Positions 5,674 to 24,077 of a stretch of DNA of 28,108 nt are shown here, one piece after another. This DNA comes from a virus. The translations under genes were made by a program, and so were the position numbers. Within the stretch, counting starts at the first letter, position 1; every line of letters starts with the position of its first letter. Below the pieces are notes generated by a model. The model was given only the letters and a program-made list of their open reading frames with translations. It was not told the DNA's origin and searched no databases. The stretch spans positions 1 to 28,108 of the IMG/VR virus record IMGVR_UViG_3300006876_000003; one strand, written 5' to 3'.

Positions 5674-5966
5674 GCTGCGCTGCGTGTCGTAATGCCCGTG
5701 GCTACTCCACACCGTGCCCCTACTGCCGTGAGCCCGGCAACCTGCAGCGTGAGCAGAGCAGGCTCGAAAGCCAGGAGGCGCGCGAGCTCGAGAAGCTTCG
5801 CGAGGTCGCCGAGGAAAACACAGCGATGCTCGAAGAGGCGCAGAAGCGCATCCGCTCGCTCGAGCAGAAGCTCGGGCCGATGCCGCCCGAGGCGCGCTGC
5901 CATGAGTGCCAGGGAACGGGCCTGAACAAGTTTTGGTTGGCGCGACAGGAACGGGAACAGACGTGA
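5670..5966 (+). CDS. Zinc-knuckle and coiled-coil protein
   Basis: 98 residues, GTG start, GTGA overlaps on both sides. Two DnaJ-like zinc half-sites flank a coiled coil: C-A-A-C plus C-P-Y-C at residues about 3-18, and C-H-E-C-Q-G-T-G near residue 78. Between them lies a Glu/Arg/Leu heptad helix of about 50 residues. The ends could bind one zinc each or pair across a hairpin. Similar small proteins are common in phage accessory regions, and no activity can be assigned. Confidence 0.6.
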   Translation: MSCAACRNARGYSTPCPYCREPGNLQREQSRLESQEARELEKLREVAEENTAMLEEAQKRIRSLEQKLGPMPPEARCHECQGTGLNKFWLARQEREQT

Positions 5967-9018: not shown

Positions 9019-9155
9019 TCCTCAAAATCCTTCTCTCAACCCTGATGATTCTCGGTGGCGGCGCTGCGGTGACGCTGCTCGCTGCCGTTGGCGTGACTGC
9101 GCTCGTCGTGGGCGCGCTGTTCGTGCAGCTGTTCAGTGGAGATCCTCGGCCATGA
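9015..9155 (+). CDS. Tiny membrane protein
   Basis: 46 residues from ATG 9015, with ATGA overlaps on both sides. Nearly the whole chain from residue 3 to 41 is hydrophobic (Leu, Val, Ala, Gly), enough for one long or two short membrane helices, ending F-S-G-D-P-R-P. It has no cationic tail typical of holins and no endolysin neighbour. It may anchor the glycosylation proteins at the membrane; that is speculation. Confidence 0.55.
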   Translation: MILKILLSTLMILGGGAAVTLLAAVGVTALVVGALFVQLFSGDPRP

Positions 9156-10057
9156 CCCCTGAGCAGGAAGCCATCGTGCGGAGCGCGCTCGATCGCGAGA
9201 CCAACCCGGACGCGCGAGCCATTCTCGAGGGGCTGCTGACGCAGCCGCAGTGCCTGCCGCCTCCCTTGGAGCCGCCGAACGGCCTCTATCGTTACGACAT
9301 CGAGCTGATGACCGACGTGCGCGAGTTCACGTGCCGCGGCAAGTCGTTCAAGGTCGCGTGCTTCGAGGGCGACGGCATCTACCACCCGTCGATCTGGAGC
9401 CACATGGACGAGGTCGAGACGCGGGAAGCCTGGTGGGACATCCAGCCCGGCGACGTGGTGTTCGACATCGGCGCTGACTTCGGGAGCTACACGCTGCCGG
9501 CGTTGGCGATGGGGGCGAAGTACGTCCACGCCTGGAGCCCGCCGTTCAAGCTGCCGAGTAAGCCGCTGGAGCTGCAGACCCTATACAGGAGCCTCCGGGC
9601 GAACGGATGGGAGGAAGAGCCTGAGCGTGCCTGTGTCTCCTCGTACGGGCTCTGGAGCAGCATCGGGTACCTGGCGAGCTTCGACGGACCTCGTCCGGCT
9701 CAGTTGTTCAGAACGCCTCAAGAGGCGCAGGCGGCCATCGCTGGGCAGGCAGGGCACTGCTCCAGCTTCTCGGTCATGCGCCTAGACGACTATGTGCCCT
9801 TCGTAGCCGGTAAATGGGACGGCTCGCGCACCTGGATCAAAATCGACACCGAAGGCGCCGAGGAAGAGATTCTCAAAGGCGCGCGCCGGACCATCGCCGA
9901 GCGTCAACCGACCATCCTGCTCGAGTACCACGAGCTCACGATGCCCGGCTGCGAAGCGCGGCTCGACGCGATGCTCGCGGACATGGGCTACGACAAGGTC
10001 GACCGCCGGCCACATCACACGATCGCGCATGGGCTGTACAAGCCGAGGGTCGAGTAG
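9152..10057 (+). CDS. FkbM-family methyltransferase
   Basis: 301 residues from ATG 9152 (ATGA). SAM-binding motif I is V-V-F-D-I-G-A-D-F-G-S-Y near residue 100-111. The FkbM signature I-K-I-D-T-E-G-A-E-E-E-I-L-K-G-A lies near 228-243, followed by I-L-L-E-Y-H. Enzymes of this family O-methylate sugars or polyketides, and phage and surface-polysaccharide clusters often use them to cap glycans. It is placed between the two glycosyltransferase genes, consistent with sugar O-methylation. Ends in TAG sharing a base with the next GTG (TAGTG). Confidence 0.83.
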   Translation: MTPEQEAIVRSALDRETNPDARAILEGLLTQPQCLPPPLEPPNGLYRYDIELMTDVREFTCRGKSFKVACFEGDGIYHPSIWSHMDEVETREAWWDIQPGDVVFDIGADFGSYTLPALAMGAKYVHAWSPPFKLPSKPLELQTLYRSLRANGWEEEPERACVSSYGLWSSIGYLASFDGPRPAQLFRTPQEAQAAIAGQAGHCSSFSVMRLDDYVPFVAGKWDGSRTWIKIDTEGAEEEILKGARRTIAERQPTILLEYHELTMPGCEARLDAMLADMGYDKVDRRPHHTIAHGLYKPRVE

Positions 10058-10260
10058 TGGCTAAGATTCAGATTGAAAAGCGCGCCACCCTGATCGTGCT
10101 GGCTCTCGGGGGTCGCGACCTGTCCGTTCCCGAGCAGAGGGACATCGCGAAGGCGTTGGTTGGCGCACAGCTAGCCGACTTTCTCAGAGAGTCTCTGGGA
10201 CAAATAGCGGCTGAGTCCGGTTGCACGTTCACCCTCGAGCCGATCGAGGGCAAGGGATGA
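10057..10260 (+). CDS. Small hypothetical protein
   Basis: 67 residues starting at GTG 10057 (one-base overlap with the upstream TAG) and ending in ATGA overlap with the next gene. An N-terminal beta hairpin-like segment (K-I-Q-I-E-K-R-A-T-L-I-V-L) is followed by a helix with Q-R-D-I-A-K-A-L and a C-terminal C-T-F-T-L-E-P. No family recognised. Good codon character and coupling suggest it is translated. Confidence 0.55.
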   Translation: MAKIQIEKRATLIVLALGGRDLSVPEQRDIAKALVGAQLADFLRESLGQIAAESGCTFTLEPIEGKG

Positions 10261-11444
10261 ACCTCGCCCTCATCTTCAGCACCTGGAACCTCGCCTTCCG
10301 CGGCGCGTTCACCTTCGCCGGGCTCTGGGACGATCCGCGCGGTCTCTCGGGCTCCGAGGTCGCGTTCGTGCAGTACGCGCGGGCACTGAAGGCCGCCGGC
10401 CACGAGGTCACGCTCTACACAGATTCGACGGACCAGGACTTCGAAGGCATGGCAGTCCGGCCGCTCGACGCGCGGACCATCACGCCACACGACGCAGCCA
10501 TCTCGTTCAACGATCCGGAGCCGCTGCGTCACTTCACTGGCGCGCTTCGGGTGTTCGTCCAGTACGTCAACAGCTTCGACTACTGCGAGCACGACATGCC
10601 GTCCTTCGTGGACCTGTTCGTGTCGCCAAGCGAGGCGCATTGCCGGATGCTCACGGGCAAAACCTGGCCGCTGAAGACCGGGAAGTGGACGCCGGACCCG
10701 CGCGATTGGGTCGTGGTGCCGCTGGCGTGCGATCCGAGCGAGTACAGCGGCGACAAGGTCCCCGGCCGCGTCATTCACTGTTCGTCGCCCGACCGCGGCT
10801 TGCACTGGCTCCTGCAGGAGTGGCCGGCCATCAAGCGCGCCGTGCCGCATGCCGAGCTTCACATCTACTACCGGCTCCGCGCCTGGCTCGATCAGTGGGA
10901 CCGGACCAAGTACAACCCGGCGCTCGAGTCGTCACGGGCGCGGGCGCTCCACATCGAAGAGTGCTTTCGGCGCATGGGCGACCGCTGGGGTGTGTTCGTG
11001 CACGACGCCGTGTCTCGGCGCGAGATTGCGACCGCGCTGTCCGAAGCCGAACTGCTCGCCTACCCGTGCGACACCGTGGCCTGGACCGAGGGATTCTCGT
11101 GCTCGACGCTCGAGGCGTGTGCTGCGCGCGCGTGCCCAGTCATCTGGGACACCGACGCGCTCGGTGACATCTACCGGGACGCTGCCGTGGTGACGCCTCG
11201 CGGTGACACGGAGCGGTGGCGAAAGACTGTGATCGAGCTGCTGACGAACCAGCGGCTCCGGGATGACGTGAACGACCGGGCCGAGGCCTTTGCGGAGACC
11301 ATGACATGGACCAACTCAACGAAGAAATTGCTCGACGCGATACAGAGCCGGTGCCGCGCGTCATCCGTATCCGCCTCGCCGACGCGACCGCTGCCGGTTG
11401 GATCCGAAACCTGCTCACCGAGCCCTGCGGCGGCGTCTCTCTGA
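10257..11444 (+). CDS. GT4-family glycosyltransferase
   Basis: 395 residues from ATG 10257 (ATGA). GT-B fold enzyme with an N-terminal acceptor domain containing L-S-G-S-E-V-A (about 30-36). A C-terminal donor domain has C-S-S-P-D-R-G-L (about 173-180), A-E-L-H-I-Y-Y and E-G-F-S-C-S-T-L-E-A-C-A-A-R (about 277-290), the E-x(7)-E-like donor site. It transfers a nucleotide-activated sugar with retention. S-S-P-D-R-G-L and the A-E-L-H block are shared with the C-terminal half of the fusion gene at 5963, so the two are paralogues. The last ~45 codons overlap the cupin gene by 139 bp and look like low-complexity read-through after K-K-L-L-D-A-I, so the functional end is probably near 11345. Confidence 0.82.
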   Translation: MNLALIFSTWNLAFRGAFTFAGLWDDPRGLSGSEVAFVQYARALKAAGHEVTLYTDSTDQDFEGMAVRPLDARTITPHDAAISFNDPEPLRHFTGALRVFVQYVNSFDYCEHDMPSFVDLFVSPSEAHCRMLTGKTWPLKTGKWTPDPRDWVVVPLACDPSEYSGDKVPGRVIHCSSPDRGLHWLLQEWPAIKRAVPHAELHIYYRLRAWLDQWDRTKYNPALESSRARALHIEECFRRMGDRWGVFVHDAVSRREIATALSEAELLAYPCDTVAWTEGFSCSTLEACAARACPVIWDTDALGDIYRDAAVVTPRGDTERWRKTVIELLTNQRLRDDVNDRAEAFAETMTWTNSTKKLLDAIQSRCRASSVSASPTRPLPVGSETCSPSPAAASL

Positions 11445-11731
11445 TTCACTCGGTGGCGGGCTCGAAGCGGTCCGCGCACTACCACAAGGAAGACGCGCAC
11501 TGGCTCTACGTGGCCAAGGGCGCGATGTTCTACTGGGAGCGCCCGGTGGGCAGCCGCGCGAAGCCGGTCTGCTACCGCGTCTACGGCGGCGAGATGATTC
11601 ACACCGGGCCGATGGTCGAGCACTGGACCGAGTTCCCGGAAGAAACCCTGCTCATCAGCATGAGCGACCGGCCGCGCGATCACGACTCGCACGAGAGCGA
11701 CGTGGTCCGGGTCGGGGAAAGGCCCGAGTGA
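11306..11731 (+). CDS. Cupin-fold protein
   Basis: 141 residues. A single cupin barrel is visible: G-S-K-R-S-A-H-Y-H-K-E-D-A-H-W-L-Y-V-A-K-G (H-x-H with E and H, residues about 52-66), F-Y-W-E-R, and G-E-M-I-H-T-G-P-M-V-E-H-W-T-E (second His motif, about 98-110). Sugar-cluster cupins include NDP-sugar epimerases and isomerases; a metal is likely bound by the His residues. ATG 11306 has GGAG upstream but lies inside the glycosyltransferase gene. GTG 11351 is an alternative start nearer the point where this frame gains good codon use. Substrate unknown. Confidence 0.75.
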   Translation: MDQLNEEIARRDTEPVPRVIRIRLADATAAGWIRNLLTEPCGGVSLIHSVAGSKRSAHYHKEDAHWLYVAKGAMFYWERPVGSRAKPVCYRVYGGEMIHTGPMVEHWTEFPEETLLISMSDRPRDHDSHESDVVRVGERPE

Positions 11732-11889
11732 TGCAGCTCACAATCGCGGCGCTGGTGATGCTCGTCGGCCTGCTGGTCTACGCGCTATCGAACAACGCGA
11801 AGGTCGCCGAGCTCGGCCGAATCATGTTCTGGACCGGGCTCGCGATCAGCCTGTTGGCGGTCGGTGGGCAAGGGGTGCGGCTGCCGTGA
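11728..11889 (+). CDS. Small two-helix membrane protein
   Basis: 52-53 residues; GTG 11728 gives a GTGA overlap and ATG 11731 a TGATG overlap with the cupin. Two hydrophobic helices (about residues 3-19 and 30-45) are separated by S-N-N-A-K-V-A-E-L-G-R. Small proteins of this layout are common in phages of Proteobacteria and have no proven role. Not a convincing holin, because no endolysin or spanin lies nearby. Confidence 0.6.
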   Translation: MMQLTIAALVMLVGLLVYALSNNAKVAELGRIMFWTGLAISLLAVGGQGVRLP

Positions 11890-12164
11890 GCGACTTCACC
11901 GAAAGGGGCATCACCAGCGCCGAATGGTTCCTCGTCGAGACGTGCCTGCGGCTCTACCGCGAGCAGCTTCGTGCCTATTCGGACTCGCGCTTCGGAATGC
12001 AACTCGGCCAGGGTCTGCCCTCGGCGCTTCTGTCAGCCATCGCGGCGGTGCATACCGAGCGCCAAGATCCGACGCTGGTCGCAGAGCTCGAGCGCGCAGA
12101 GCGTGAGGCGAAGGCCGCGGCGGGCCGCGTCGCTGAACTGCGGAAGAGGGTCAATGGCGAGTAG
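11886..12164 (+). CDS. Hypothetical protein with C-terminal coiled coil
   Basis: 92 residues from GTG 11886 (GTGA); it overlaps the next gene by 11 bp. The N-terminal half has E-R-G-I-T-S-A-E-W-F-L-V and L-R-L-Y-R-E-Q-L. The last ~30 residues are a Glu/Ala/Arg heptad helix (L-E-R-A-E-R-E-A-K-A-A-A). No family recognised. Its place inside the sugar cluster is the only clue to function. Confidence 0.55.
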   Translation: MSDFTERGITSAEWFLVETCLRLYREQLRAYSDSRFGMQLGQGLPSALLSAIAAVHTERQDPTLVAELERAEREAKAAAGRVAELRKRVNGE

Positions 12165-13362
12165 CTTCCACATCCGCGCCACCTGCCGCCTCTGCTCGGC
12201 GCAGCTCCCCGAGGAGCGCATCCTGGACCTAGGCGAGACCGCGCTGGCGAACGAGCTCAAGTCCACGCGCGCGGAATCTCTGGCGCAGGACAAGTTCCCG
12301 CTCTACCTCGTGCAGTGCAAGGCGTGCGGTCACGTGCAGCTGCCGGTCGTGGTGGACCCGGAGCGGCTGTTCCCGGCGGATTACCCGTACGAGAGCGGCA
12401 CCACGGAGACCTTTCGCGATCACCTCTGGCACCAGGCGCAATGGCTCGACGATCTGCTGCCTCGGAACGCGCGGGTGCTCGAGATCGGCTCGAACGACGG
12501 GACGCTGCTCGGGTACCTGAAGAAGCTCGGCCATCTCGTGGTCGGCGTGGACCCGGCGGAAGGCGTCGCGGTCAAGGCGCGAGAGGCTGGCGTTCCGACC
12601 GAGATCGAGCACTTCAGCTTCGGGGTCGCGTGCCGGCTCGCTGCCACGTACGGCCCGTTCGATCTGGTCGTGGCCAACAACGTCTTTGCGCACGTGGACG
12701 AGCTGTCCTCGTTCACCGAAGGCGTCGCGCATGTCCTGAAGCCGGGCGGGAGCTTCGTGTTCGAGGTCGGGTACTTCCCGCGGGTGTGTGAGCGGGGGTT
12801 GCTCGGGACCGTGTATCACGAGCACCTCTCGTACCATTCGCTCTCGAGCCTGGACCCGTTCCTGAAGGCGCGGGGGTTCGACTTCATGCAGATTCACGAG
12901 ATCGATTCGCAGGGCGGATCCATCCGATGCCTGGCTCGCAAGCGCGGCCCTGAGTTGACTGGCGAAGAGGCGCTGCGGCACGCCGCGGTGATGGCCGGGC
13001 GGAGCTTCCCGGAGCCTTTTGATCCGCTCGCCCTCGACGACCACCGCCGAGACCTGGTAGCCAAAACGTGCGCCGTCCTGGACTTGCTCCTCGCCGGCAA
13101 GCGCGTCTGCGGCTACGGCGCGCCCGCAAAGCTGACCTCGCTGCTCGCGGCGACCGGGCTCGGCGCTGACGAGCTGGAATGCGTGTTCGACGACAACCCG
13201 CGGAAGGTTGGGAAGTTCACGCCGGGGAGCGGGATACCAATCGTGGCCAGTGCCGAGATCGCGGAGCGAAAGCCCGACGTGCTGGTGCTGTTCTCGGGCA
13301 ACTTCGAAGCGGAGATCAGGCGGAAGCATCCCGAGTTCTCGGGGGATTGGATCGTGCTCTGA
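12154..13362 (+). CDS. NDP-sugar C-methyltransferase (TylCIII/TcaB9 type)
   Basis: 402 residues from ATG 12154. Three-part architecture of sugar C-methyltransferases: an N-terminal zinc site (C11, C14, C55, C58), a central SAM domain with L-E-I-G-S-N-D-G-T (109-117), and a C-terminal Rossmann-like substrate domain with G-Y-G-A-P-A-K. The catalytic Y-H-E-H box (221-224) and an upstream H180 match the residues used by TcaB9-like enzymes to deprotonate a 4-keto sugar before methylation at C3. It therefore needs a 4-keto-6-deoxy donor, which the RmlB-like enzyme at 14426 could supply. Length and all key residues are intact, and this is the best functional clue in the island. Confidence 0.88.
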   Translation: MASSFHIRATCRLCSAQLPEERILDLGETALANELKSTRAESLAQDKFPLYLVQCKACGHVQLPVVVDPERLFPADYPYESGTTETFRDHLWHQAQWLDDLLPRNARVLEIGSNDGTLLGYLKKLGHLVVGVDPAEGVAVKAREAGVPTEIEHFSFGVACRLAATYGPFDLVVANNVFAHVDELSSFTEGVAHVLKPGGSFVFEVGYFPRVCERGLLGTVYHEHLSYHSLSSLDPFLKARGFDFMQIHEIDSQGGSIRCLARKRGPELTGEEALRHAAVMAGRSFPEPFDPLALDDHRRDLVAKTCAVLDLLLAGKRVCGYGAPAKLTSLLAATGLGADELECVFDDNPRKVGKFTPGSGIPIVASAEIAERKPDVLVLFSGNFEAEIRRKHPEFSGDWIVL

Positions 13363-13363
13363 A

Positions 13364-13876
13364 ATGGCACTTCTGGACACGCTGAAGATGCTCTACACGC
13401 CCGAGCGCCTGATGGAGGCGATGAAGGTATCGACCCCCGCCGGTCGCATCGAGGAGATCGCCTCTCTTTACGAAGAGGGAATCATCGAGCAGGTGACGGC
13501 CATGCAGCTGCTGAACACGCCGCTTCAGCCCGAGCCGATGCCCTGCGTAAAAGACGACCGACGTCGTCCCGCTGATTACCAGTGCCAGTGCGACAAGTGC
13601 CTCATTCAGCGAGAGCGCCTAGCCTTCCCGGAGAGCCCGCTTCTCAATCGCCTGAACACCGCGCCCCTGCCGGAGCCTACGCATTGCACCTGCGGCGCGG
13701 AGTTGATGGGCGCGAAGGCGGTCGCCTGGAAGCGCTGCGGCGATTGCAACGTCGCTTTTCTCAGCGGGAGAAAGCCCCAGGACATCGACACCCGAATCCG
13801 GGCCGCCGCCAAGCCCGACGCTGACCCGACGAGCGGCTGGAGCGCTGGCGCGACTGCGGGGTACGAATGGCCCTGA
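13364..13876 (+). CDS. Hypothetical protein with two Cys clusters
   Basis: 171 residues from ATG 13364, one base after the preceding stop. The N-terminal helical part (to ~60) is followed by C-Q-C-D-K-C (about 74-79). Further on, C-T-C-G with C-G-D-C (about 108-126) makes a zinc-ribbon-like pair. The C-terminus is disordered, rich in Ala/Gly/Pro. No family recognised; metal binding is likely but the partner is not visible. Confidence 0.58.
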   Translation: MALLDTLKMLYTPERLMEAMKVSTPAGRIEEIASLYEEGIIEQVTAMQLLNTPLQPEPMPCVKDDRRRPADYQCQCDKCLIQRERLAFPESPLLNRLNTAPLPEPTHCTCGAELMGAKAVAWKRCGDCNVAFLSGRKPQDIDTRIRAAAKPDADPTSGWSAGATAGYEWP

Positions 13877-14097
13877 ACGGCAAAGAAGCCGCCTTCGTGC
13901 GGGCGATGCGCGAGGAAGTCGACGCGCTTTACGTCGAGGCCGCTCGGGCCCTGAGCGCGCTGCCACCGGGCTACGTCCCGGGGCCGCCCGTCAAGTATCC
14001 CTGGCATCGCCGAGCCCGCTGGTTCGTGCGCGCGAAGGTGAACGATGCGCGGGAATGGCTCGCGCTCAGGATCGCGCCTTGGCTGGAGAGGGACTGA
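13867..14097 (+). CDS. Small basic hypothetical protein
   Basis: 76 residues; ATG 13867 overlaps the previous gene by 10 bp and the stop forms TGATG with the next start. Helical, with W-H-R-R-A-R-W-F-V-R-A-K and a C-terminal amphipathic R-E-W-L-A-L-R-I-A-P-W-L. It could bind nucleic acid or membrane through the Trp/Arg face. No family recognised. Confidence 0.5.
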   Translation: MALNGKEAAFVRAMREEVDALYVEAARALSALPPGYVPGPPVKYPWHRRARWFVRAKVNDAREWLALRIAPWLERD

Positions 14098-14429
14098 TGG
14101 AATACCGATGCGAGTTCGGCCCGTGTGTCGAGATGGCAGACGGCAAAATGCTCTGCAATCTGCTCCCGGACTGCGGATGCGCGGGCGCCACGATGCGGAA
14201 GGCGTATCAGCGGGCGCTGGAGCTTCTGGAAAAGAACAACCTCGAAGCCCTGCACGCGGAGTTCAAGCTCGATGCTGAGCCGCGCCTTTTCTACTCCGTG
14301 CTGATGATTCTCGACGATCGGGACCTCATTGATCACGGCTCGAGCATTCGCTGCCCCTGGCTTACGGAGCGCGGCGAGGAGGCCCTGCGCCTGATGCGCG
14401 AACACTGGCCGCAGGAGGACGGATCGTGA
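14097..14429 (+). CDS. Hypothetical protein with winged-helix-like C-terminus
   Basis: 110 residues; ATG 14097 (TGATG). A Cys-rich N-terminus (C5, C10, C20, C26, C28) may bind metal. The rest reads like a small helical module ending L-I-D-H-G-S-S-I-R-C-P-W-L-T-E-R-G-E-E-A-L-R-L, resembling the wing and last helix of winged-helix proteins. Weak resemblance only; no function assigned. Confidence 0.5.
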   Translation: MEYRCEFGPCVEMADGKMLCNLLPDCGCAGATMRKAYQRALELLEKNNLEALHAEFKLDAEPRLFYSVLMILDDRDLIDHGSSIRCPWLTERGEEALRLMREHWPQEDGS

Positions 14430-15418
14430 CTCGAATCCTCGTTACCGGCGGCAACGGCTTCATCGGCGCCCACCTCGTGCGTCACCTGCTCGAGGGCTCC
14501 GATTGGGACGTGGTGTCGCTCGACCGCCACGACGACGCCTCGAACCACGAAGCGCTCGTGCCGCTCAAGGCGCGCTACCGGGACCGGCTGACCATCGCCT
14601 GGCGGGACCTGCGCGCGCCGATCGTGCTCACCGCTCCGGACCCGCTGTCGATTCCGTTCGATTTCGTTGCCCACCTCGCCGCGGCCTCGCACGTGACGCG
14701 CTCCATCATCGCGCCGCTCGGCTTCCTGCACGACAACGTCATGAGCACAGCGCACCTGCTCGAGTGGGCGCGCTTCCATCAGCCGGGCCTGAAAAAGCTC
14801 CTGCTGTTCTCGACGGACGAGGTGTTCGGGCCGGCGCCGGACGGGCACGAGTTCAGCGAGTTCGAGGGCTTCAACCCGAACAACCCGTACGCCGCGAGCA
14901 AAGCCGCCGCGGAGATTCTGGGGCCGGCCTGGGCCAACACCTGGGGCATCCCCATCGTGCGCACAAGGTGCACCAATATTTACGGGTCTGGGCAGCATCC
15001 CGAGAAGTTCATTCCGCTCTGCGTGGACCTCATCAGCCGCGGGGCGACCGTCCAGATCCATGCGCGCAACGGCGTGCCGAGCTCGCGCTTCTACGTGCAC
15101 GTCGACGACGTCTGCCGCGCGACGCTGACCGTGCTCGAAAAGGGCGGCGTCTGGTGCGGGCCGAAGACCGGCGCCTATCACATCGGCGGCGACGAGGAGC
15201 TCTCGAACCTGGACGTGGCGCAGGAAATCGCCAGCTGTCTCGGCATGCCGATCCGAGTCGAGCTGTGCGAGGCGGCCTCGAATCGCCCGCGGCACGATCA
15301 GCGCTACGCGCTCGACAGCCGGCATCTGCGCTCGCTCGGATGGCAGCCGGAGATCCGGTTTGCGGACGGGCTGCCGGGCGTCGTCGAGAGCCTGGCGGGC
15401 GGGAGGAAGGTCGCGTGA
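14426..15418 (+). CDS. NAD-dependent dehydratase/epimerase, RmlB-like
   Basis: 330 residues from GTG 14426 (GTGA). An extended short-chain dehydrogenase with the NAD-binding G-G-N-G-F-I-G (8-14), L-A-A-A-S-H-V (84-90), S-T-D-E-V-F-G (129-135) and Y-A-A-S-K (Y155, K159). The T-D-E triad is the hallmark of dTDP-glucose/CDP-glucose 4,6-dehydratases, which make 4-keto-6-deoxy sugars, the substrates of C-methyltransferases such as the one at 12154. H-V-D-D-V and A-Y-H-I-G-G downstream fit the substrate domain. Length is typical. The exact nucleotide sugar cannot be told from sequence. Confidence 0.85.
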   Translation: MTRILVTGGNGFIGAHLVRHLLEGSDWDVVSLDRHDDASNHEALVPLKARYRDRLTIAWRDLRAPIVLTAPDPLSIPFDFVAHLAAASHVTRSIIAPLGFLHDNVMSTAHLLEWARFHQPGLKKLLLFSTDEVFGPAPDGHEFSEFEGFNPNNPYAASKAAAEILGPAWANTWGIPIVRTRCTNIYGSGQHPEKFIPLCVDLISRGATVQIHARNGVPSSRFYVHVDDVCRATLTVLEKGGVWCGPKTGAYHIGGDEELSNLDVAQEIASCLGMPIRVELCEAASNRPRHDQRYALDSRHLRSLGWQPEIRFADGLPGVVESLAGGRKVA

Positions 15419-15635: not shown

Positions 15636-16157
15636 TTGGCACCTAGAACCAAGGGCGTTCACTGGTCGTCTGACCTCGACGACGTGACCCGCGAAGCCAT
15701 CGACATGATGCTCGACGGCAAGTGGATTACTGGCCGTTCGCACCTCGATCTGGCCAAAAAGCACGGGCGCGACGAGGGCCAAGTGCGCCAGATCGCCGCG
15801 AACGCCTCGCGCTTCATTCGCCTGTGCCGCGGCAAGGAAGACCAGGTCCGCGAGCGCATCCTGCTCGCGATAGACCGCGGCGAGCGGCTCGCGCTCGAAG
15901 CCGAGAAGGTCGCGTTCTCGATGGACGGCCAGGAGTTGCGCGCGAAGCAGCCCGACCTCCGTGCGCTGATCGCGTTTCTGCAACTCCAGTGCGAGGTGCA
16001 CGGACTCTGCCGCTCGGCGAAGGACAAGCCGACGGACGACGACACGGTGAAGCTCCCGATTAACGAACTGCGCGAGCTCCTCGATGGGCTCGGCTTCGAA
16101 GTGGTGAAAAAAGATGGCTCAAGCAGCGACGAAGAAGACGGAACCACCGGCGAGTGA
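15636..16157 (+). CDS. terS: Terminase small subunit
   Basis: 173 residues from TTG 15636. This rare start is chosen because AGAAGGA (15623-15629) lies 6 nt upstream and the upstream codons in frame are non-coding operator DNA. An N-terminal helix-turn-helix (L-D-L-A-K-K-H-G-R-D-E-G-Q-V-R-Q-I) is followed by a long helical hairpin (R-I-L-L-A-I-D-R-G-E-R-L-A-L-E-A-E) and an acidic Ser/Glu/Asp tail. This is the layout of TerS proteins, which bind pac/cos DNA as rings and hand it to TerL. No single diagnostic motif; the call rests on architecture and its place ahead of TerL. Confidence 0.68.
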   Translation: MAPRTKGVHWSSDLDDVTREAIDMMLDGKWITGRSHLDLAKKHGRDEGQVRQIAANASRFIRLCRGKEDQVRERILLAIDRGERLALEAEKVAFSMDGQELRAKQPDLRALIAFLQLQCEVHGLCRSAKDKPTDDDTVKLPINELRELLDGLGFEVVKKDGSSSDEEDGTTGE

Positions 16158-16521
16158 GCCGGAACAGCAGCCGAAGACGGCAACGCAGCTCGCGGCGGAA
16201 GCAAGCCGGCGCGAAGACCTGGAGACGACTGGCCCCGGCGAGTACGAGTGTACCGGCATCTGGTTTCCGGTGGGCCAGATGCTCCCGAACGCCAGCCGAG
16301 AGGTGATGCTGGGCGGCCACATCAGCGGCATCAGCGCGCTTTCGGGCCGCGTCGATAAGATCGTGATGCAGGCCAACGGCATCGTGCGGGTTTGCATGGA
16401 GGTGACCTCGGGGCGTCTGCCGCCGGGCACGCGGAACTACATCTTCTTCTCTGGTAACTCGTATCAGTACGCCGAGGCGGCCCCGATCACGCCGCGCGAG
16501 ATGGGAAGGCTCCGCCAATGA
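16114..16521 (+). CDS. Hypothetical protein between TerS and GroES-like gene
   Basis: 135 residues from ATG 16114, overlapping TerS by 44 bp and the next gene by ATGA. An N-terminal ~40 residues are disordered (Lys/Glu/Pro/Gln/Ala). The rest is beta-rich with a G-E-Y-E-C-T-G-I-W-F and N-Y-I-F-F-S-G-N-S-Y-Q-Y pattern. No family recognised. Its coupling to the GroES-like gene suggests joint expression. Confidence 0.6.
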   Translation: MAQAATKKTEPPASEPEQQPKTATQLAAEASRREDLETTGPGEYECTGIWFPVGQMLPNASREVMLGGHISGISALSGRVDKIVMQANGIVRVCMEVTSGRLPPGTRNYIFFSGNSYQYAEAAPITPREMGRLRQ

Positions 16522-17195
16522 AGCCCTTCCGCCTGCTCGAGGACAACGTTCTGATTCGGCTCGAGCCGCTCGAGGCCCAGTCCGGCGCGATTCACGTCGT
16601 GCGCTCCGGCGAGTGGGATAACCAGCGGCTCGCGCGCGTGCTGATGTGCGGGCCGGGCCACTACACGGAGCCCTACTTCGGCGGGCCGCGCGGCGCGCTC
16701 GTCGAGGTCGAGCCGAAGCCCGGAGACCTCGTGCTCGTGAGCAAGCATTCCGGCCACACCTACCGCCGCGGGCTCGACATCCACACGCCGAGGCAGAACG
16801 CGGACACGAGCTTCGGCGAGCTGTTCGACGAGCGCGGCGAGTACCGCATCATCCGAGCCGAGGAAGCCTACGCGCGGCGGACGACGGACGGGCTCGAAGC
16901 GCTCGGCCGGCACGTCGTCATCAAGCGCGACGACTTCGAGGAGAAGACCCCCGGCGGCATCGTCATCCCGCGGACCGTGGACGACAAGAACCTGAACGGA
17001 ACCGTGGTCAGCATCGGCCGCGGGCGCGCGCTTCGGGACGGCTCGTTCCGCCGGCACGAGATCGAGGTCGGTGACCGCATTCTCTTCGGGCAGCACGCCG
17101 GCAACCCGATCACGGTGCCGGGGCTCGAGGGCCTGATGGTCCTGCGGGATGAGGATGTGATCGCGACGTACGGAGAAGCCGAAGCTGCCGAATGA
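16518..17195 (+). CDS. Tandem GroES-type co-chaperonin (two Cpn10 domains)
   Basis: 225 residues from ATG 16518 (ATGA on both sides). It contains two GroES folds in one chain. Domain 1 (about 4-115) has L-L-E-D-N-V-L-I-R and a divergent mobile loop S-G-A-I-H-V-V, then a roughly 15-residue insertion before P-G-D-L-V-L-V. Domain 2 (about 128-220) is close to standard GroES: L-G-R-H-V-V-I-K-R, mobile loop E-E-K-T-P-G-G-I-V-I (141-150), G-T-V-V-S-I-G-R-G, V-G-D-R-I-L-F and L-R-D-E-D-V-I-A. GroES forms the lid of the GroEL folding chamber, and its G-G-I-V-L loop contacts GroEL. Phage lids such as T4 gp31 enlarge the chamber for capsid protein. A double-domain lid is known mainly from chloroplast Cpn20. 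Located in the head-assembly operon, it probably helps the host GroEL fold the capsid protein. Confidence 0.88.
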   Translation: MKPFRLLEDNVLIRLEPLEAQSGAIHVVRSGEWDNQRLARVLMCGPGHYTEPYFGGPRGALVEVEPKPGDLVLVSKHSGHTYRRGLDIHTPRQNADTSFGELFDERGEYRIIRAEEAYARRTTDGLEALGRHVVIKRDDFEEKTPGGIVIPRTVDDKNLNGTVVSIGRGRALRDGSFRRHEIEVGDRILFGQHAGNPITVPGLEGLMVLRDEDVIATYGEAEAAE

Positions 17196-18619
17196 CCGCG
17201 CACCTCGAGATCCCGCGCAAGCTTTACGACTCGCTCCGAGTGAGCGCGGGACTCGATCCGTTATGGCTCGCCGACTTGCACCCGAAGCAGATGAGCTTCG
17301 TGAAGAGCAAGGCGCAGCGAAAGGCCGCGCTCTGCTCACGGCGCGCGGGGAAAACTTGGGGCGAGGTCGCGTGGCTTTACCAGGGCATGGTAGCAAGTCC
17401 GGGCACTCGCTCCGTCTATGTAACGCTCTCCCGTTCGCGCGCGCGGCAGATCGTGTGGGACCAGGTGCTGGCGAAGATGCAGCGCCGATACCGGTTCCCG
17501 ATCGTGCTGCGTCAGCGCGACGGGCAGCTGATGGTCGAGCACCGGAACGGCTCTTCGCTCTGGCTCGTCGGCTGCGCGAACCGCTCCGAGGCAGCCAAGC
17601 TCCGCGGTGAGCCCTTGCGGCGCGCCGTCGTGGACGAGGCGCAGGCTTTCGCGGATTGGATTCAGGGCATGATCGAGGACGACCTCGAGCCCTCGCTGAT
17701 GGATCTCCAGGGCGAGCTCGCGCTGACCGGCACGCCCTCCCCGATCGCCACCGGCTACTTTTATGAGCTGACCACCGGCCAGACACCGGGCTGGGAGAAC
17801 CACCACTGGACCGTGCTGGACAACCCGGCGCTTCCGCACGCTGCCGAGTACCTGGCCGAGCGTCGCAAGCGTCACGGCTGGACCGAGCAGACCCCGAGCT
17901 ATCGCCGGGAATGGCTCGGCGAGTGGGTCGATGACCCGGACGCGCTCGTTTACCCGTTCACCTACGCGAAAAACCAGTGGTCTCCGAACCACGACACGCC
18001 GTTCGGGCTTCCGCCGGGCGACTACATCTTCGGGCTCGGCGTCGACCTCGGTTTCGGCGACAACTCGACCGCGTTCACGCTCGGCGCGAAGCGTCAGGGG
18101 GCCGGCGAGGTCTACTTGCTGCGCTCCTACACGCGCTCGAGGATGATTCCGACCGCGGTGGGCGCTCATGTGCAGCGGATCCGGCAAGAGGTCCGCGAAA
18201 AGACCGACTCCGGGCTCGCGGTCGTGGTCGACGAAGGTGCGCTCGGTGCCGGATACGCGGAACAGATGCGCCAGATGGGCGTGAACTGCGACGCGGCCGA
18301 GAAAAAGAACAAGCGCGCGTTCCAGGACTACGTCGGAGGGCTCATTCACAGCGGCTCCGTGCTCGTGGATTACGGCGCGTGCCGCGAGCTCATCGACGAA
18401 GCAAAGAAGCTGCCGTTCGACGAGGACACAGGCAAGGAAGACGAGCGCTATCGGCGTCATTGCGCAGATTCGGCGCTCTATTTGGTTCGTCGGCTGATGC
18501 CCAAGCTCGATGGGGAGATCGAGGGGCCGAAGCCGGGGTCACCGGAAGCAATCAAGGCGGAGATGCTGGCGCACAAAACGCGCCTGCTGAGGGAGAGGCA
18601 GGGAAAGCGACGCAGCTAA
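17192..18619 (+). CDS. terL: Terminase large subunit
   Basis: 475 residues from ATG 17192 (ATGA). ATPase domain: Walker A S-R-R-A-G-K-T (49-55), Walker B R-A-V-V-D-E-A (144-150) with catalytic E149, coupling motif L-T-G-T-P (178-182). C-terminal RNase H-like nuclease: G-V-D-L-G-F-G-D (about 283-290), V-V-V-D-E-G (about 344-349) and a late Asp in C-A-D-S-A (about 424-428). This motor cuts the concatemer and pumps DNA into the prohead through the portal. Length and all motifs are normal. Confidence 0.95.
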   Translation: MTAHLEIPRKLYDSLRVSAGLDPLWLADLHPKQMSFVKSKAQRKAALCSRRAGKTWGEVAWLYQGMVASPGTRSVYVTLSRSRARQIVWDQVLAKMQRRYRFPIVLRQRDGQLMVEHRNGSSLWLVGCANRSEAAKLRGEPLRRAVVDEAQAFADWIQGMIEDDLEPSLMDLQGELALTGTPSPIATGYFYELTTGQTPGWENHHWTVLDNPALPHAAEYLAERRKRHGWTEQTPSYRREWLGEWVDDPDALVYPFTYAKNQWSPNHDTPFGLPPGDYIFGLGVDLGFGDNSTAFTLGAKRQGAGEVYLLRSYTRSRMIPTAVGAHVQRIRQEVREKTDSGLAVVVDEGALGAGYAEQMRQMGVNCDAAEKKNKRAFQDYVGGLIHSGSVLVDYGACRELIDEAKKLPFDEDTGKEDERYRRHCADSALYLVRRLMPKLDGEIEGPKPGSPEAIKAEMLAHKTRLLRERQGKRRS

Positions 18620-18620
18620 A

Positions 18621-18920
18621 GTGAACATTCAATTTCGGCCGGAAGAAGTGGCCGGTTCTACCGTGATGGAGAGACTCCGTCGCGCGGGCGCCTTGTTCTT
18701 CAGGGAAGCGGGCGCAGCACCGGGCAGCATCTCGATGAGTCCCGAAGCCTGGCAGGACTGCGTCGGGTTCGCGGCGGCGAATAATCCGGCGTTCCGGATC
18801 GAAGAGCGATCGGGTCGCCGAGCCGCTCTTCAGGTTGCGATGTTCGGCCGCTTCGTCGATCTCGAATGCGACCTTGCGGTCACGGGGCTCGAGTCATTCT
18901 GCGTGGAGTCGGCGTCGTGA
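18621..18920 (+). CDS. Hypothetical protein between TerL and portal
   Basis: 99 residues from GTG 18621, one base after the TerL stop, with a GTGA overlap into the portal gene. Mixed alpha/beta, with F-G-R-F-V-D-L-E-C-D-L-A-V-T-G-L near the end. No family recognised. Placement in the packaging block suggests a head accessory or regulatory role. Confidence 0.6.
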   Translation: MNIQFRPEEVAGSTVMERLRRAGALFFREAGAAPGSISMSPEAWQDCVGFAAANNPAFRIEERSGRRAALQVAMFGRFVDLECDLAVTGLESFCVESAS

Positions 18921-20785
18921 GCCTCGCAGTCGTCGATGACTGGACGAAGCTGCCGGCTCACGAGATCGGCGGCGCTGTTCATCAGCTCGTCGAGGGCTTC
19001 AAGCGAACGCAGAGCGGTCGCCGCAACAACTACACGCGAAACCTCGAGCTCTACGAACGCCGTTCTTTCGCTGGCTACACGGCCTACGACTACGACGACT
19101 ATTCGACGAACCGAGAGTTCAACTCGGACCGGCTCGGGCTCGTGCGCTCGGCAGTCGAGAGTGCCGTTGCCTCGGTCTACGCGCCACAGAAGCCGAAGCC
19201 GCAGTTCCAGACGATGGGCGCGACCTGGGCGACCCGGCGCAAGGCCTACAAGCTCGACCGGATCTGCGAAGGCATCATCAACCAGCGGCAGGGGCGCTTC
19301 ATCAACGTCTGGGCCTTCATGGCGGACGCTTCGGTGGACGCGGTGCTCCAGGGCGTCGCGGCGATCAAGGTCGTGGCGAACCGCGCCCGGAAGCGCATCG
19401 AGCACGAGGTCGTCCCCCACCCGGACATCTTCGTGGACCCGGCCGAGGGCCGCGATCCGCAGAACCTCTTCCAGCGCGCGCCCATCGACCAGCACCTCGC
19501 GATCGCGCAGTACGGCAACAAGCTGGCAATCCGAGCGGCGATCGAGGGCGCGGTCCAATACGAGTGGTACGGCCTCGCCAACAGCCACCCGCGCGCCACG
19601 AAGTGCGTCGAGATCCAGTATGCCTGGCGGCTGCCGGCCTCGAAAGAGGAGCCCGGCAAATACGTCGCCTGCATCAACGGCACGGTCGTTGACGAGGCCG
19701 AATGGACGGCGCCGGCGTTTCCGTTCGAGTTCCTGGTCTGGTCCCATCACCGGGACGGCTTCTGGGGCTCGGGGGTCGCGAACGAGGGCTCGCAGATGGC
19801 CGAGGAGTGCGGCGAGCTCGACCGGCGCCTTTGGTTCCGCGAGCTCATCGCCAGCGGCCAGACCGTCTATGCCCAGCGCGACTCGGTCAAAGCCGATGAC
19901 CTGGCGCTGAACGACGCGCGCAAGGTCGTCTTCTACGAAGGCCAGATGCCGCAGGAGAGCGTCAGCGTCCCGTTCGCGCCAATGGAGCTCGAGTTTCTGC
20001 AGTTCAAGGTGCAGGGCTTTTGGGACGCGATCGGCATCTCGCAGGTCTCTGCCGCCGCGCGCCGCGAGTCCAACGTCTCGAGCGGCGTGGCCATGATCAC
20101 GCTGAACGACACGAAGGCCGGGCGGCAGCTGCCGAAGGCGAAGCGCTACGAGGAGTTCTATGTGGGCCTGGCGAATCAGTACGTCTGGCGCCTGCGCGAG
20201 CTCGCCGAGGAGGATCCGAACTACGCGGTGAAGTGGGCCGGCAAGACGCTGCTCCGCGAGTACAAGTTCTCGGACGCTGACGTGGACGATGACGAGGCGT
20301 TCACGGTCACCGTCGCGCCTGCTGCTGCTCTCCCGCACGACCCCGCCGGCCGGCAAGAGGCCGTGCAGCTGATGTACAACAACAAGTTCATCGGCAAGGA
20401 GACGGCGCGGCAGCTCATGGGCTGGCCCGATCTCGATAACGAGATGTCCCTCGACTCGGCCGAGCTCGAGTACATCGACATGCTGATCGAGCGCTACCTC
20501 GACGCCGACAAAGAGAGCTTCGACATGACCGAGTACGAAGCCCCCGAGGGCTTCATCACCAACAAGCTCGGGGCCGTTCGGCGCTTTGCCGCAGCCTGGT
20601 TCCGCGCGCGCACGGATTCCTTTTCGCTGCCGAAAGCGGAGCAGCTGAAGGCGACTTTCAACCTGAACCTTTTGACCAGGTGGATCAAAGAGATGGATGC
20701 GATCATTCAGCGAGAGGCGGAGGCCGCAGCGGCGCTCCAGTCGGGGCAGCCCATGAACCCGGGACAGGCGGCAGCCAATGTCTGA
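18917..20785 (+). CDS. Portal protein (podovirus type)
   Basis: 622 residues from GTG 18917 (GTGA). The size and mostly helical make-up are those of podoviral portals. Segments seen include an N-terminal Y-E-R-R-S-F-A-G-Y and F-N-S-D-R-L-G-L-V, a central D-I-F-V-D-P, H-H-R-D-G-F-W-G-S-G-V and I-S-Q-V-S-A-A-A-R-R-E-S-N-V-S-S-G-V-A. The late part has D-P-A-G-R-Q-E-A-V-Q-L and a Gln/Ala/Pro-rich tail. Forms the dodecameric ring through which DNA enters. The order TerL, portal, scaffold, capsid supports the call more than any single motif. Confidence 0.87.
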   Translation: MSLAVVDDWTKLPAHEIGGAVHQLVEGFKRTQSGRRNNYTRNLELYERRSFAGYTAYDYDDYSTNREFNSDRLGLVRSAVESAVASVYAPQKPKPQFQTMGATWATRRKAYKLDRICEGIINQRQGRFINVWAFMADASVDAVLQGVAAIKVVANRARKRIEHEVVPHPDIFVDPAEGRDPQNLFQRAPIDQHLAIAQYGNKLAIRAAIEGAVQYEWYGLANSHPRATKCVEIQYAWRLPASKEEPGKYVACINGTVVDEAEWTAPAFPFEFLVWSHHRDGFWGSGVANEGSQMAEECGELDRRLWFRELIASGQTVYAQRDSVKADDLALNDARKVVFYEGQMPQESVSVPFAPMELEFLQFKVQGFWDAIGISQVSAAARRESNVSSGVAMITLNDTKAGRQLPKAKRYEEFYVGLANQYVWRLRELAEEDPNYAVKWAGKTLLREYKFSDADVDDDEAFTVTVAPAAALPHDPAGRQEAVQLMYNNKFIGKETARQLMGWPDLDNEMSLDSAELEYIDMLIERYLDADKESFDMTEYEAPEGFITNKLGAVRRFAAAWFRARTDSFSLPKAEQLKATFNLNLLTRWIKEMDAIIQREAEAAAALQSGQPMNPGQAAANV

Positions 20786-21932
20786 AGCAGCGGAAGCGGT
20801 TTCGACGGGCGGAGGCGGCGATAGCGGCGCGGCCGTCGAGGCGAACCCCCAGGTCGGCGAGTCCGTCATTGAGACGCTTGCCCGGCTCGAAGCGGCCGGC
20901 GCTGGCGCTGAGTTCGCGGAGAGCTCGCCCGGCACCGAGGAGGCCGAAGGCGGAGGCGAGGGGGCCGAAGCTGGCGCCAAGGCGACCGAGAAGGCCAAGG
21001 GCTCGGGAAAGGCCGATTCTGACGGCGAGGAGGGCAAATCCACGTCGGCGCCCGAGGCGGGCAAGCCGAGCGCCGAGTTCATGGCCGAGGCCGAGCGCTT
21101 GGGCCTGGTCATCGACGACAAGGGCCGGGTCGCAAACGGCGAACGGAAGAAGTTCCGCGAGTACAAGGAAGCCGAGCGCGCGAAGCTCGACCAGCGCGCG
21201 CAGGAGATTTCCCAGAAGCTCGAGACCGCCCGGACCGACCTGCGGAACGACCTGATTTTCGCGAACGCGGTCCGCGCGGCGCGCGAGGCCAGGGATGAGA
21301 CCGCGCTGGCAAAGCTGCTCGGATTCGAGGACTTCGACGCCTACCAGCAGGACCTCATCAACCACAAGGCGGATCCGAACCATCGCCGGCTGATGGAGCT
21401 CGAGCGCCAGCTCCAGGAAAAGCAGCGGAAGGAGGCCGAAGCCGAGCAGGCGAACCAGCGCGCCGAGATGACCGCCCAGCAGCGCGCGGCCGAAGACCGC
21501 TACATCGCAAACCTGACCGAGCAGATGACCAAGTCCGAAGACCGCGTGGTCCGGGCGATCGGCGGGCTGCCGCTGTTCCGGGACGCCATCTACGAGATCC
21601 AGAAAGAGCACTGGGACCCGATCGCCAAGCGCACCGTCTCGCCCGAGCGCGCGCTCAAGCTGGCACTGAAGGGCGCCCCGCCGTTGCTCGAGGAAGCGCG
21701 CGCCATCTACCAGCGGCTGCACGAGGCGTTCGGCCCGGAAGAAGCCGAGGAGGCCGAAGAGCGGCCCGCGGCGAAGCCCACCCCGAAGCCGGTCGTGAAG
21801 GGCAAGCCTGCCGGCACGAAGACCGGGCCGTCGCCGAAGCCGAGTCCCAGCGCGCCGCCGGACGTCTCGAAGATGTCCGACGCCGAGGTCTCGAGGTACT
21901 GGACGAAGCGGCTGGCGGAGGCGGGCGACTAG
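20778..21932 (+). CDS. Scaffolding protein
   Basis: 384 residues from ATG 20778. Acidic Ala/Gly/Glu-rich disordered N-terminus (1-100), a long charged coiled coil (about 120-250), a conserved-looking G-G-L-P-L-F-R-D-A-I-Y segment, a Pro/Lys linker and a short C-terminal helix V-S-R-Y-W-T-K-R-L. This is the classic scaffold profile: the coiled coil self-associates and the terminal basic helix binds capsid. Lies between portal and major capsid. Stop codon shared in CTAG with the opposite-strand gene. Confidence 0.8.
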   Translation: MSEAAEAVSTGGGGDSGAAVEANPQVGESVIETLARLEAAGAGAEFAESSPGTEEAEGGGEGAEAGAKATEKAKGSGKADSDGEEGKSTSAPEAGKPSAEFMAEAERLGLVIDDKGRVANGERKKFREYKEAERAKLDQRAQEISQKLETARTDLRNDLIFANAVRAAREARDETALAKLLGFEDFDAYQQDLINHKADPNHRRLMELERQLQEKQRKEAEAEQANQRAEMTAQQRAAEDRYIANLTEQMTKSEDRVVRAIGGLPLFRDAIYEIQKEHWDPIAKRTVSPERALKLALKGAPPLLEEARAIYQRLHEAFGPEEAEEAEERPAAKPTPKPVVKGKPAGTKTGPSPKPSPSAPPDVSKMSDAEVSRYWTKRLAEAGD

Positions 21933-22543
21933 CCGCAGGTCGGCGCGAACGCCGCGCATTCTCGCAGCGCGCAGTAGCTCGCCAGAGTTTCGGCGTCGAT
22001 GCAGGGCGGCTGTTCCGTGGCCACGCCGTTCATCAGGGCGCCGTCGCCGTGCTCAAGCCCCAAGTAGTGCCCGAGCTCGTGCAGCGTGATTGTTCGGAAC
22101 AAGCCGTACTCGGCCAGGTCGAATCCGCGCTCGAGCAGCTCGACGGGGTAGATCCGTTCGGCGTCGAGCTCGATGCGCTTCTCGCGCCGGCGCGTGCAGC
22201 CGGCAGCGTGGGCCGTGTCGCCGCAGCGCTCGATCGGCTCTCGCTCGATGGTCCAGGAAGGCTGCGCACCGAAGGCAGCGGGCGCTAGGTCCACGCTGCC
22301 GCCGGTGGCGTCGAGCCACTGCCGAAAAGCGCTGTCGATTTCCGAGCGCTCGGCTGGGCGGAACTCGGGGCTCACGGCGATCGGCGCGAGGGGCTCGACG
22401 GTTTGCTCGGGAGCAGGCTCGGCAACGCAGCCGGCGGCAGCGAGAGCAAACAGGGCGACCCAGGAGCGGGCGGAGATTGGTCCGAGGGGGAGGTAGGTGC
22501 GAACCCGGGTCACCCTGCTCGAAAATCTATCACCGCGGTCCAT
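21929..22543 (-). CDS. Metzincin-type zinc metalloprotease lipoprotein (moron)
   Basis: 204 residues on the minus strand, the only gene of the window on that strand. A lipoprotein signal (W-V-A-L-F-A-L-A-A-A-G-C, C39 lipidated) is followed by a Pro/Glu linker. Then comes a catalytic H-E-L-G-H-Y-L-G-L-E-H (H155, E156, H159, H165) with a Met-turn A-L-M-N-G (M171): HExxHxxGxxH as in matrixins and astacins. Six Cys in the last half may form disulfides. It would be exported and tethered to a membrane. Not a virion gene; insertion between scaffold and capsid marks a moron, perhaps expressed in the lysogen. The ATG at 22543 is far from the signal; GTG 22513 is a shorter alternative start. Confidence 0.82.
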   Translation of the reverse strand: MDRGDRFSSRVTRVRTYLPLGPISARSWVALFALAAAGCVAEPAPEQTVEPLAPIAVSPEFRPAERSEIDSAFRQWLDATGGSVDLAPAAFGAQPSWTIEREPIERCGDTAHAAGCTRRREKRIELDAERIYPVELLERGFDLAEYGLFRTITLHELGHYLGLEHGDGALMNGVATEQPPCIDAETLASYCALRECAAFAPTCG

Positions 22544-22817: not shown

Positions 22818-24077
22818 ATGGGTTCCACAGAAACCACGTTCCGAGCGCTCCTGAAGGAGCGTTATCTCGGCTCCGGCATCGTCGAAAAGCTCACCTATCC
22901 CAAGAATCCGTTCTTGGCGATGCTGCAGAAGAAAGGGGACACCGGCTTCGTCGGCTTCGACCTGCCCGTTCCGCTCTTCTACAGCAATCCGCAGGGCCTC
23001 GGCGGCAACTTCACGGCCGCTCAGACCAACGTCTCGAACACGAAGTCTGATCGCTGGGTCATCACGGCCGGCGATTACTACGGCGTCGTTCACATCGGCG
23101 ACAAGGTCTTCGAGCTCTCGCGTTCGAATCAGGGCGCGTTCCTCGACAACAAGCGCGCTGAAATCGACGGCCTCTACACGCAGGCCGGCGACAACATGTC
23201 CAAGTACATGTGGGGCAACGGTGGCGGCTCGCTCGGCCGTCGTCAGAGCATCAGCTCGAACACCGTCACGCTCGCCACCGTAGCGGACGCCTGCAACTTC
23301 GAAGTCGGAATGACCGTCGTCGCGTCTGCGGCGGACGGCTCAATTTCGACCGATGCGCTCCGCGGCGGCACCCCGACCACGGTCACCGGCGTCAATCGCT
23401 CGGACGGCACCGTCACCCTGGCGGCAGCGGCCAACATCACGTCGTTCGCGGACGGTGACTACCTGTTCCGCGAAGGCGATTTCTTCGGCACGACCGGCAC
23501 GATCGTCGTCAAGGGCGCTCAGTGCTTCGTCACCGCGACGAACGTTCCGATGGATCTCTGGGGCATCTCCTCGGCGACCCGTCAGACCGATCTGGAGCGG
23601 TTCTCGGGCTGCCGCGTCTCGGCGAACGAGATCGCGGGCAAGACCTACGAAGAGCGGATCCTTCTGCTCATCGCGAAGATGACCGGCGCCTACAAGGCGG
23701 AGGCCCCGACGGCTGGATTCGTCCACCCGGAGACCTTCGTCAAGTTCGCGACGCTCCTGTCTGCGCGCGGCATCCGCCCGCTCGAGGACAAGAACACGCA
23801 GTTCGGCTTCATGAAGATCGACGTCATCACCAGCGATGGTGTGCTGCCGATCTACACGGACCGTCACTGCCCGAAGGACGAGTTCTTCGGCTTCAAGATG
23901 GACAACTGGGGTCTCTCGTCCGTTGGCGAGCTGTTCCACCCGCAATCGGTCGACGGCTCGAGCGGCGACCTGCTCCGGCGCGCCTCGAGCACGGACTTCG
24001 AGTTCCGCCTGCTCAGCTACCCGGCGCTCTACTGCAACGCCCCCAAGAACAACGGGCGAGTCCCGCTCGAGAGCTGA
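22818..24077 (+). CDS. Major capsid protein
   Basis: 419 residues from ATG 22818. The size and position after scaffold identify the main shell subunit. Blocks visible are an N-terminal F-R-A-L-L-K-E-R-Y, P-F-L-A-M-L, V-P-L-F-Y-S-N-P-Q-G, a central beta-rich insertion (about 145-215, Thr/Ala/Val-rich), E-E-R-I-L-L-L-I-A-K-M, F-V-H-P-E-T-F-V-K-F and a C-terminal F-E-F-R-L-L-S-Y-P-A-L. The pattern fits an HK97-fold capsid with an insertion domain. Its expression is probably set by the hairpin before the RBS. Likely client of the tandem GroES. Confidence 0.85.
   Translation: MGSTETTFRALLKERYLGSGIVEKLTYPKNPFLAMLQKKGDTGFVGFDLPVPLFYSNPQGLGGNFTAAQTNVSNTKSDRWVITAGDYYGVVHIGDKVFELSRSNQGAFLDNKRAEIDGLYTQAGDNMSKYMWGNGGGSLGRRQSISSNTVTLATVADACNFEVGMTVVASAADGSISTDALRGGTPTTVTGVNRSDGTVTLAAAANITSFADGDYLFREGDFFGTTGTIVVKGAQCFVTATNVPMDLWGISSATRQTDLERFSGCRVSANEIAGKTYEERILLLIAKMTGAYKAEAPTAGFVHPETFVKFATLLSARGIRPLEDKNTQFGFMKIDVITSDGVLPIYTDRHCPKDEFFGFKMDNWGLSSVGELFHPQSVDGSSGDLLRRASSTDFEFRLLSYPALYCNAPKNNGRVPLES

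Follow-up and report, generated by a model that had tools for sequence, protein, structure and literature searches.

The locus raises the question of whether a virus gene located directly in front of the terminase codes for a co-chaperonin of two complete Cpn10 domains and, if so, where the two domains come from. The window, which here means the whole stretch of DNA analysed, is the record of an uncultivated virus and is 28,108 bases long. The gene is a single uninterrupted ORF on the plus strand (16518..17195), from ATG at 16518 to TGA at 17195, and encodes 225 aa plus stop, with a purine-rich GGAAGG 8 nt 5' of the ATG. It shares an ATGA overlap with an upstream ORF of 135 aa (16114..16521, plus strand), which has weak homologues upstream in two related contigs, L228 and L230. 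A second ATGA overlap joins it to the downstream ORF of terminase large subunit (TerL; 17192..18619, plus strand; phrog_2, E 1e-34), and this confirms the position in the packaging operon proposed in an earlier sequence-only reading of this DNA. The gene order continues with a portal-like protein (18866..20785, plus strand), designated according to position and size and without family match, a scaffold-like protein, and the major capsid protein of 419 aa (22818..24077, plus strand; phrog_14242, E 5e-12); the match of the latter to SU10_MCP was under the cut-off (E 2e-4). No in-frame ATG, GTG, or TTG is present near the domain boundary of the co-chaperonin, so that it reads as one polypeptide.

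Other features of the window were also recorded. A 204-aa matrixin-like metallopeptidase (PF00413, E 1.5e-5) with the motif HELGHYLGLEH and a lipoprotein-like start is coded on the minus strand at 21932-22543, antisense between the scaffold and capsid genes. Ahead of the packaging module, at 4930-15418, there is a sugar-metabolism block with oxidoreductase, glycosyltransferases, C-methyltransferase, and GDP-mannose-dehydratase-like genes, possibly a surface-glycan cluster. An ORF truncated at the window edge (2-328) reads DEVCRFMGHSSVQVTERYAR, which we take to resemble the C-terminus of a tyrosine recombinase, and this would point to a temperate phage. A search of the window for tRNA genes was negative.

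The 225-aa protein is divided by HMM into two domains, aa 1-123 and aa 124-222, i.e., the tandem layout of the Cpn20 type, and a search of PDB chains with the whole protein returned GroES/Cpn10 chains (best E 2.9e-19). Domain 2 (16896..17171, plus strand) is a canonical Cpn10/GroES. Taken alone (aa 127-218), it belongs to PF00166, with 72.4 bits at a cut-off of 21.1 (E 3.2e-20), and it matches also PHROG GroES (E 1e-17) and GroES models of NCBIfam. Bacterial-type GroES from virus contigs is 40% identical to it. An AF2 model, for which 44 phage relatives were aligned, has pLDDT 93-95 across most of the barrel. The GroEL-binding type of loop ascribed to this domain was found as T-P-G-G-I-V-I-P (aa 144-151; 16947..16970, plus strand), with the flank E-E-K on its N-terminal side. 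The hydrophobic GroEL-binding tripeptide that marks the loop of group I co-chaperonins is present in TPGGIVIP of domain 2 and, as the variant GAIHVV, in domain 1.

Domain 1 (16518..16880, plus strand) is more divergent. Alone (aa 2-121), it scores 13.8 bits against PF00166 and falls under the cut-off of 21.1, so it is not a family member by this threshold; in each of Pfam, PHROGs, and NCBIfam, Cpn10/GroES nevertheless ranks first for it (NCBIfam E 9e-5). A phage Cpn10 HMM, which gives 92 bits for domain 2, aligns with domain 1 from end to end with 31.0 bits, while the best of 5000 shuffles reached 8.3. When the profile of the domain-1 family was compared with Cpn10 in hhalign, P was 1.3e-14 and the score 84, with a maximum of 18 in 100 column shuffles. 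In AF2, confidence was low across domain 1 if its relatives were missing from the alignment, and it rose to pLDDT 78 and pTM 0.72 once five homologues and eleven sequences of Cpn10 proteins had been included. This model superimposes on Thermus thermophilus Cpn10 (1wnr; Z 10.2, 2.5 A, 86 residues), other fold matches being Xanthomonas GroES and, lower, T4 gp31 (Z 7.7), whereas the GroES-like domains of dehydrogenases and reductases reach Z 6.7 or less. As modelled, domain 1 would have the GroES beta-barrel fold. Since Cpn10 sequences were inside the AF2 alignment, the model demonstrates compatibility, and the independent proof is that of the sequence statistics. Judged by the sequence tests with shuffles, which we consider decisive, domain 1 is assigned to Cpn10, and the presence of two Cpn10 folds, read earlier from the sequence, holds for both halves of the protein. 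Also the divergent loop and the insertion described for domain 1 were found, the former as A-Q-S-G-A-I-H-V-V-R at aa 20-29 (16575..16604, plus strand), where G-A-I-H-V-V departs from the canonical motif in lacking its second glycine and its proline, and the latter at about aa 86-105 (16773..16832, plus strand).

Relatives were not obtained directly, neither from viral contigs searched with the 225-aa protein, domain 1, and TerL, nor from genome contigs searched with the 225-aa protein and the portal. The capsid protein led to five contigs with capsid proteins of equal length and about 56% identity, and a portal profile made from these led to five contigs with upstream DNA, designated as L228 to L232, whose portals are 55-64% identical to the portal-like protein used as bait. 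In each of the five there is a homologue of domain 1 that consists of one domain only (34-41% identity, E 1e-12 to 1e-18), that of L229 having lost its N-terminus at the contig end. The homologues from L230, L231, and L232 clear the PF00166 cut-off of 21.1 (scores of 21.6, 26.3, and 34.1 bits). No match to domain 2 was found anywhere in the five records, including those of 44.9 and 61.6 kb. In L228, homologue and TerL share an ATGA like that of the window, and in L229 a short gap lies between the two genes; TerL of the window is 50-53% identical to those of L228 and L229. In L230-L232, the domain-1-type lid is located immediately 5' of the portal, with no terminase between, and the gene order of the packaging module therefore varies within the lineage. 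In all five, the place in the operon, before TerL or portal, is equivalent to that in the window, and what differs is the second domain. The search for the same fusion in other phages, proposed in the sequence-only reading, thus yielded no second contig with the fusion and, in its stead, these single-domain homologues.

The loops of the relatives (SGIAIV, SGLSIV, GGLHLV, and HGIKIL) have the form G-[IL]-x-[IL]-[VL], and the loop of the window domain 1 is three residues shorter before the next strand than that of the closest relative L231. The insertion is common to the domain-1 homologues. As relatives share both the loop type and the insertion, these are traits of the lineage and not signs of decay after the fusion.

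The origin of the fusion can be read from the same comparison. Domains 1 and 2 are only 21% identical, and in the tree domain 1 clusters with the relatives (support 0.92) while domain 2 does not, so that a recent internal duplication is ruled out. Domain 1 as a degenerate copy of domain 2 is ruled out as well, by the five single-domain homologues. Because domain 1 is carried by five relatives and domain 2 by none of them, domain 1 is regarded as the lineage's own and domain 2 as added. According to these sequences, domain 1 represents the ancestral single-domain lid of the lineage and domain 2 a newcomer, seen only in the window contig, which seems to be a lid of bacterial type. The protein ends with E-A-E-A-A-E-stop (17175..17195, plus strand; overlapping the TerL start), and this tail resembles the ends of several single-domain relatives (..EAEAAE, ..AEAAE, ..EQAAE, and ..IAAE, with ..RHVE in L231). 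The simplest reading is that domain 2 may have been inserted in frame between the ancestral body and its tail, with the coupled start of TerL kept. The A/E-rich tail is short, and hence the argument from it is only suggestive.

A fusion seen in one contig, with five related contigs lacking domain 2, could also be a chimera of a domain-1 gene with an unrelated groES that arose by assembly or recombination artefact, and another IMG/VR contig, L116, does carry an apparent assembly duplication of Cpn10. We consider this explanation very unlikely. The junction is in frame, TerL behind it is of the same lineage as in L228 and L229, the family tail and the ATGA overlap are intact after domain 2, and GC as well as third-position GC are similar in domain 1, domain 2, and TerL; moreover, both entry and exit would have to fall exactly at domain boundaries.

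To the statement that known phage lids are single-domain proteins, a scan for T-x-G-G-I-V-I-P gave the following. At least 119 stretches were recovered, many of them from single-domain phage Cpn10 proteins; among the 92 distinct non-crAss phage Cpn10 sequences collected, a sample drawn mainly by one loop motif and not an unbiased census, two domains occurred in the window and in L116 alone. The stricter scan for K-T-P-G-G-I-V-I-P gave no match. The repeat in L116 (2489-3416) is near letter-identical, includes non-Cpn10 sequence, and reaches the contig end; it is probably an assembly duplication and was rejected as a double Cpn10. The window protein is thus the sole credible double among the 92 distinct phage Cpn10 sequences collected. 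Of the jumbo phage records with two tblastn places, Erwinia phage pEa_SNUABM_47 and Xanthomonas phage XbC2 were examined and also rejected as carriers of tandem domains, as their GroES is single-domain or the two places lie far apart. No paper on a double or tandem GroES of phages was found in an open-access literature search.

The single-domain rule stands for this sample, and it is less certain in respect of family phrog_13932, in which GroES proteins of Cellulophaga phages phi38:1 and Calle, Flavobacterium elemo phages, crAss-like relatives, and a spring-water podovirus are two-module proteins of 180-194 aa, coded directly before or near TerL, an arrangement present in many phages of Bacteroidota type. 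Their C-terminal half is Cpn10 (hhalign P 8.8e-8). The N-terminal half is weakly Cpn10-like, with P 6e-4, or P 1.5e-4 if the domain-1 family was added, and its Cpn10 nature is unproven; in both tests the score lies above every one of the 100 shuffles, narrowly so in the first. Judging from these profiles, phages may have in this family another double lid, of older date. The window gene is not a member (E 0.0046, over aa 64-216 only), specific similarity of the N-terminal half to the domain-1 family was not found (hhalign prob 4.8), and the canonical loop of the window domain 2 is missing in phrog_13932 proteins. Loci of this type are L143-L222 (IMG/VR), L016, L141, and L142, and 540 IMG/VR contigs encode relatives. 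In MT497075.1 (L020, L142), from the Flavobacterium elemo phages, GroEL is coded together with a small GroES that belongs to it, and the 180-aa two-module GroES is coded elsewhere, adjoining the packaging genes.

In domain layout, the protein agrees with the comparison made earlier to chloroplast Cpn20. Chloroplast and apicoplast Cpn20 and Chlamydomonas Cpn23 have two head-to-tail Cpn10 domains in about 190-225 aa, and Chlamydomonas Cpn23 is the best PDB match of the window protein in phmmer. In a 2013 paper, the double structure was stated to be specific to eukaryotes of plant lineages (PMC3542282). Unlike Cpn20, the window protein is coded in a phage packaging operon and combines two unequal domains that stem from different sources. 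Nothing was found that points to a common ancestor of the two fusions, and descent from plastid Cpn20 was rejected, as domain 1 comes from a phage lineage and is single-domain in the five related contigs. The protein, as far as the sequences tell, resembles Cpn20 in architecture and is not a member of it.

Among phages, T4 gp31 and RB49 CocO are Cpn10 lids that replace host GroES for folding of head protein, and T4 needs gp31 in order to fold its capsid protein on the GroEL of the host (PMC3012670). Both are single domains of about 110 aa, unlike the window protein. Domain 1 is 13% identical to gp31 over the fold match, and no evidence was found for common descent of the window protein and gp31 closer than the level of Cpn10. 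Single GroES genes before the terminase are already known. In Xanthomonas phage PBR31 (QIN95328.1), the order is single GroES, small terminase-like, TerL, portal, scaffold, and capsid genes; its GroES is single-domain and, unlike in the window, separated from TerL by the small-terminase-like gene. Fold and operon position are therefore ordinary, and what is unusual is a fusion with traceable ancestry. Given its place among packaging genes, and given that some phage GroES-like genes sit in tail or structural clusters, the product could instead be a virion or packaging component of Cpn10 fold and no lid for GroEL. This is highly improbable, as domain 2 keeps the canonical GroEL-binding loop and gp31, the phage Cpn10 that has been studied well, acts as a lid (PMC3012670).

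The window protein is probably a two-domain phage co-chaperonin for host GroEL, composed of the lid of its lineage and the added domain 2. No Cpn60/GroEL gene was found in the window or in the related contigs, which are fragments, and the likely partner is thus GroEL of the host. As to GroEL binding, ring make-up, client, and use of both loops, we infer the following. Two Cpn10 domains, domain 1 being the lineage lid and domain 2 added at its C-terminus, would be fused head to tail and, by analogy with Cpn20, would occupy neighbouring places in one lid ring. About seven domains would sit on the GroEL ring, supplied by three phage subunits and one host GroES or, alternatively, by four phage subunits, one domain of which stays outside the ring. 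Such a lid would cap GroEL around new phage proteins, most plausibly the capsid protein and further head proteins that are expressed late together with it. Gene order and the analogy with gp31 make the 419-aa capsid protein a candidate client. The suggestion that a larger lid serves this capsid protein is not supported by the relatives, in which the capsid proteins of equal length are accompanied by a single lid.

It was considered also that domain 2 alone may grip GroEL, while domain 1 serves as a roof or docking module specific to client or capsid. The domain 1 loop, shorter than in L231 and without the second glycine and proline, would fit this, as would the far closer similarity of domain 2 to canonical GroES. 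In the relatives, however, no Cpn10 other than the domain-1-type protein was found, and this protein, provided that it is a lid, must act alone; its presence there, with a loop of this type, supports a lid role of domain 1. The window domain 1 keeps the family loop pattern (I-H-V-V), and the insertion is ancestral and predates the fusion. Such a division of labour is therefore judged unlikely, and both domains are assumed here to work in a common ring.

The sequence-only reading held that a pseudo-heptamer of unequal domains must solve a symmetry mismatch with GroEL. From known doubles, this problem is not new. Isolated Cpn20 forms tetramers or trimers, and doubles function with seven-fold chaperonins (PMC3542282, PMC5780408); linked GroES rings of six or eight domains are functional, and plants and green algae probably use a hetero-oligomer of seven domains in nature (PMC5780408). 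In PDB 7ekq, one Cpn11, one Cpn23, and two Cpn20 chains add up to seven Cpn10 domains. From the behaviour of Cpn20 and from 7ekq, a ring of about seven working domains is favoured. A narrower version of the same explanation is that the protein forms closed homo-oligomers only, of three or four subunits (six or eight domains) and never with host GroES, domain 2 raising the avidity. Plasmodium Cpn20, which works as sole co-chaperonin, is mainly tetrameric, and complements GroES in E. coli (PMC3542282), speaks for it together with the linked six- and eight-domain rings, while the seven-domain form of plants and green algae speaks against it, and the sequence holds nothing that separates a homo-oligomer from a mixed ring. 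We regard exclusive homo-oligomers as rather unlikely and retain the two-domain co-chaperonin of about seven working places.

A more far-reaching version can be put forward tentatively, as a possibility that we hold to be somewhat doubtful. The protein could be an independent Cpn20-like double, in which a bacterial-type GroES domain was grafted on a phage lid, so that the ring would combine phage-specific and host-type domains, perhaps recruit host GroES, and redirect host GroEL to head proteins. The single-domain form of L231 or L232 and the window protein are a pair small enough for expression and testing. If true, a phage that reached the layout of Cpn20 by addition of a domain would provide, with its relatives, a natural before-and-after pair, which would bear on how a lid of paired domains fits a seven-fold chaperonin and on why a virus replaces or hybridises the lid of its host.
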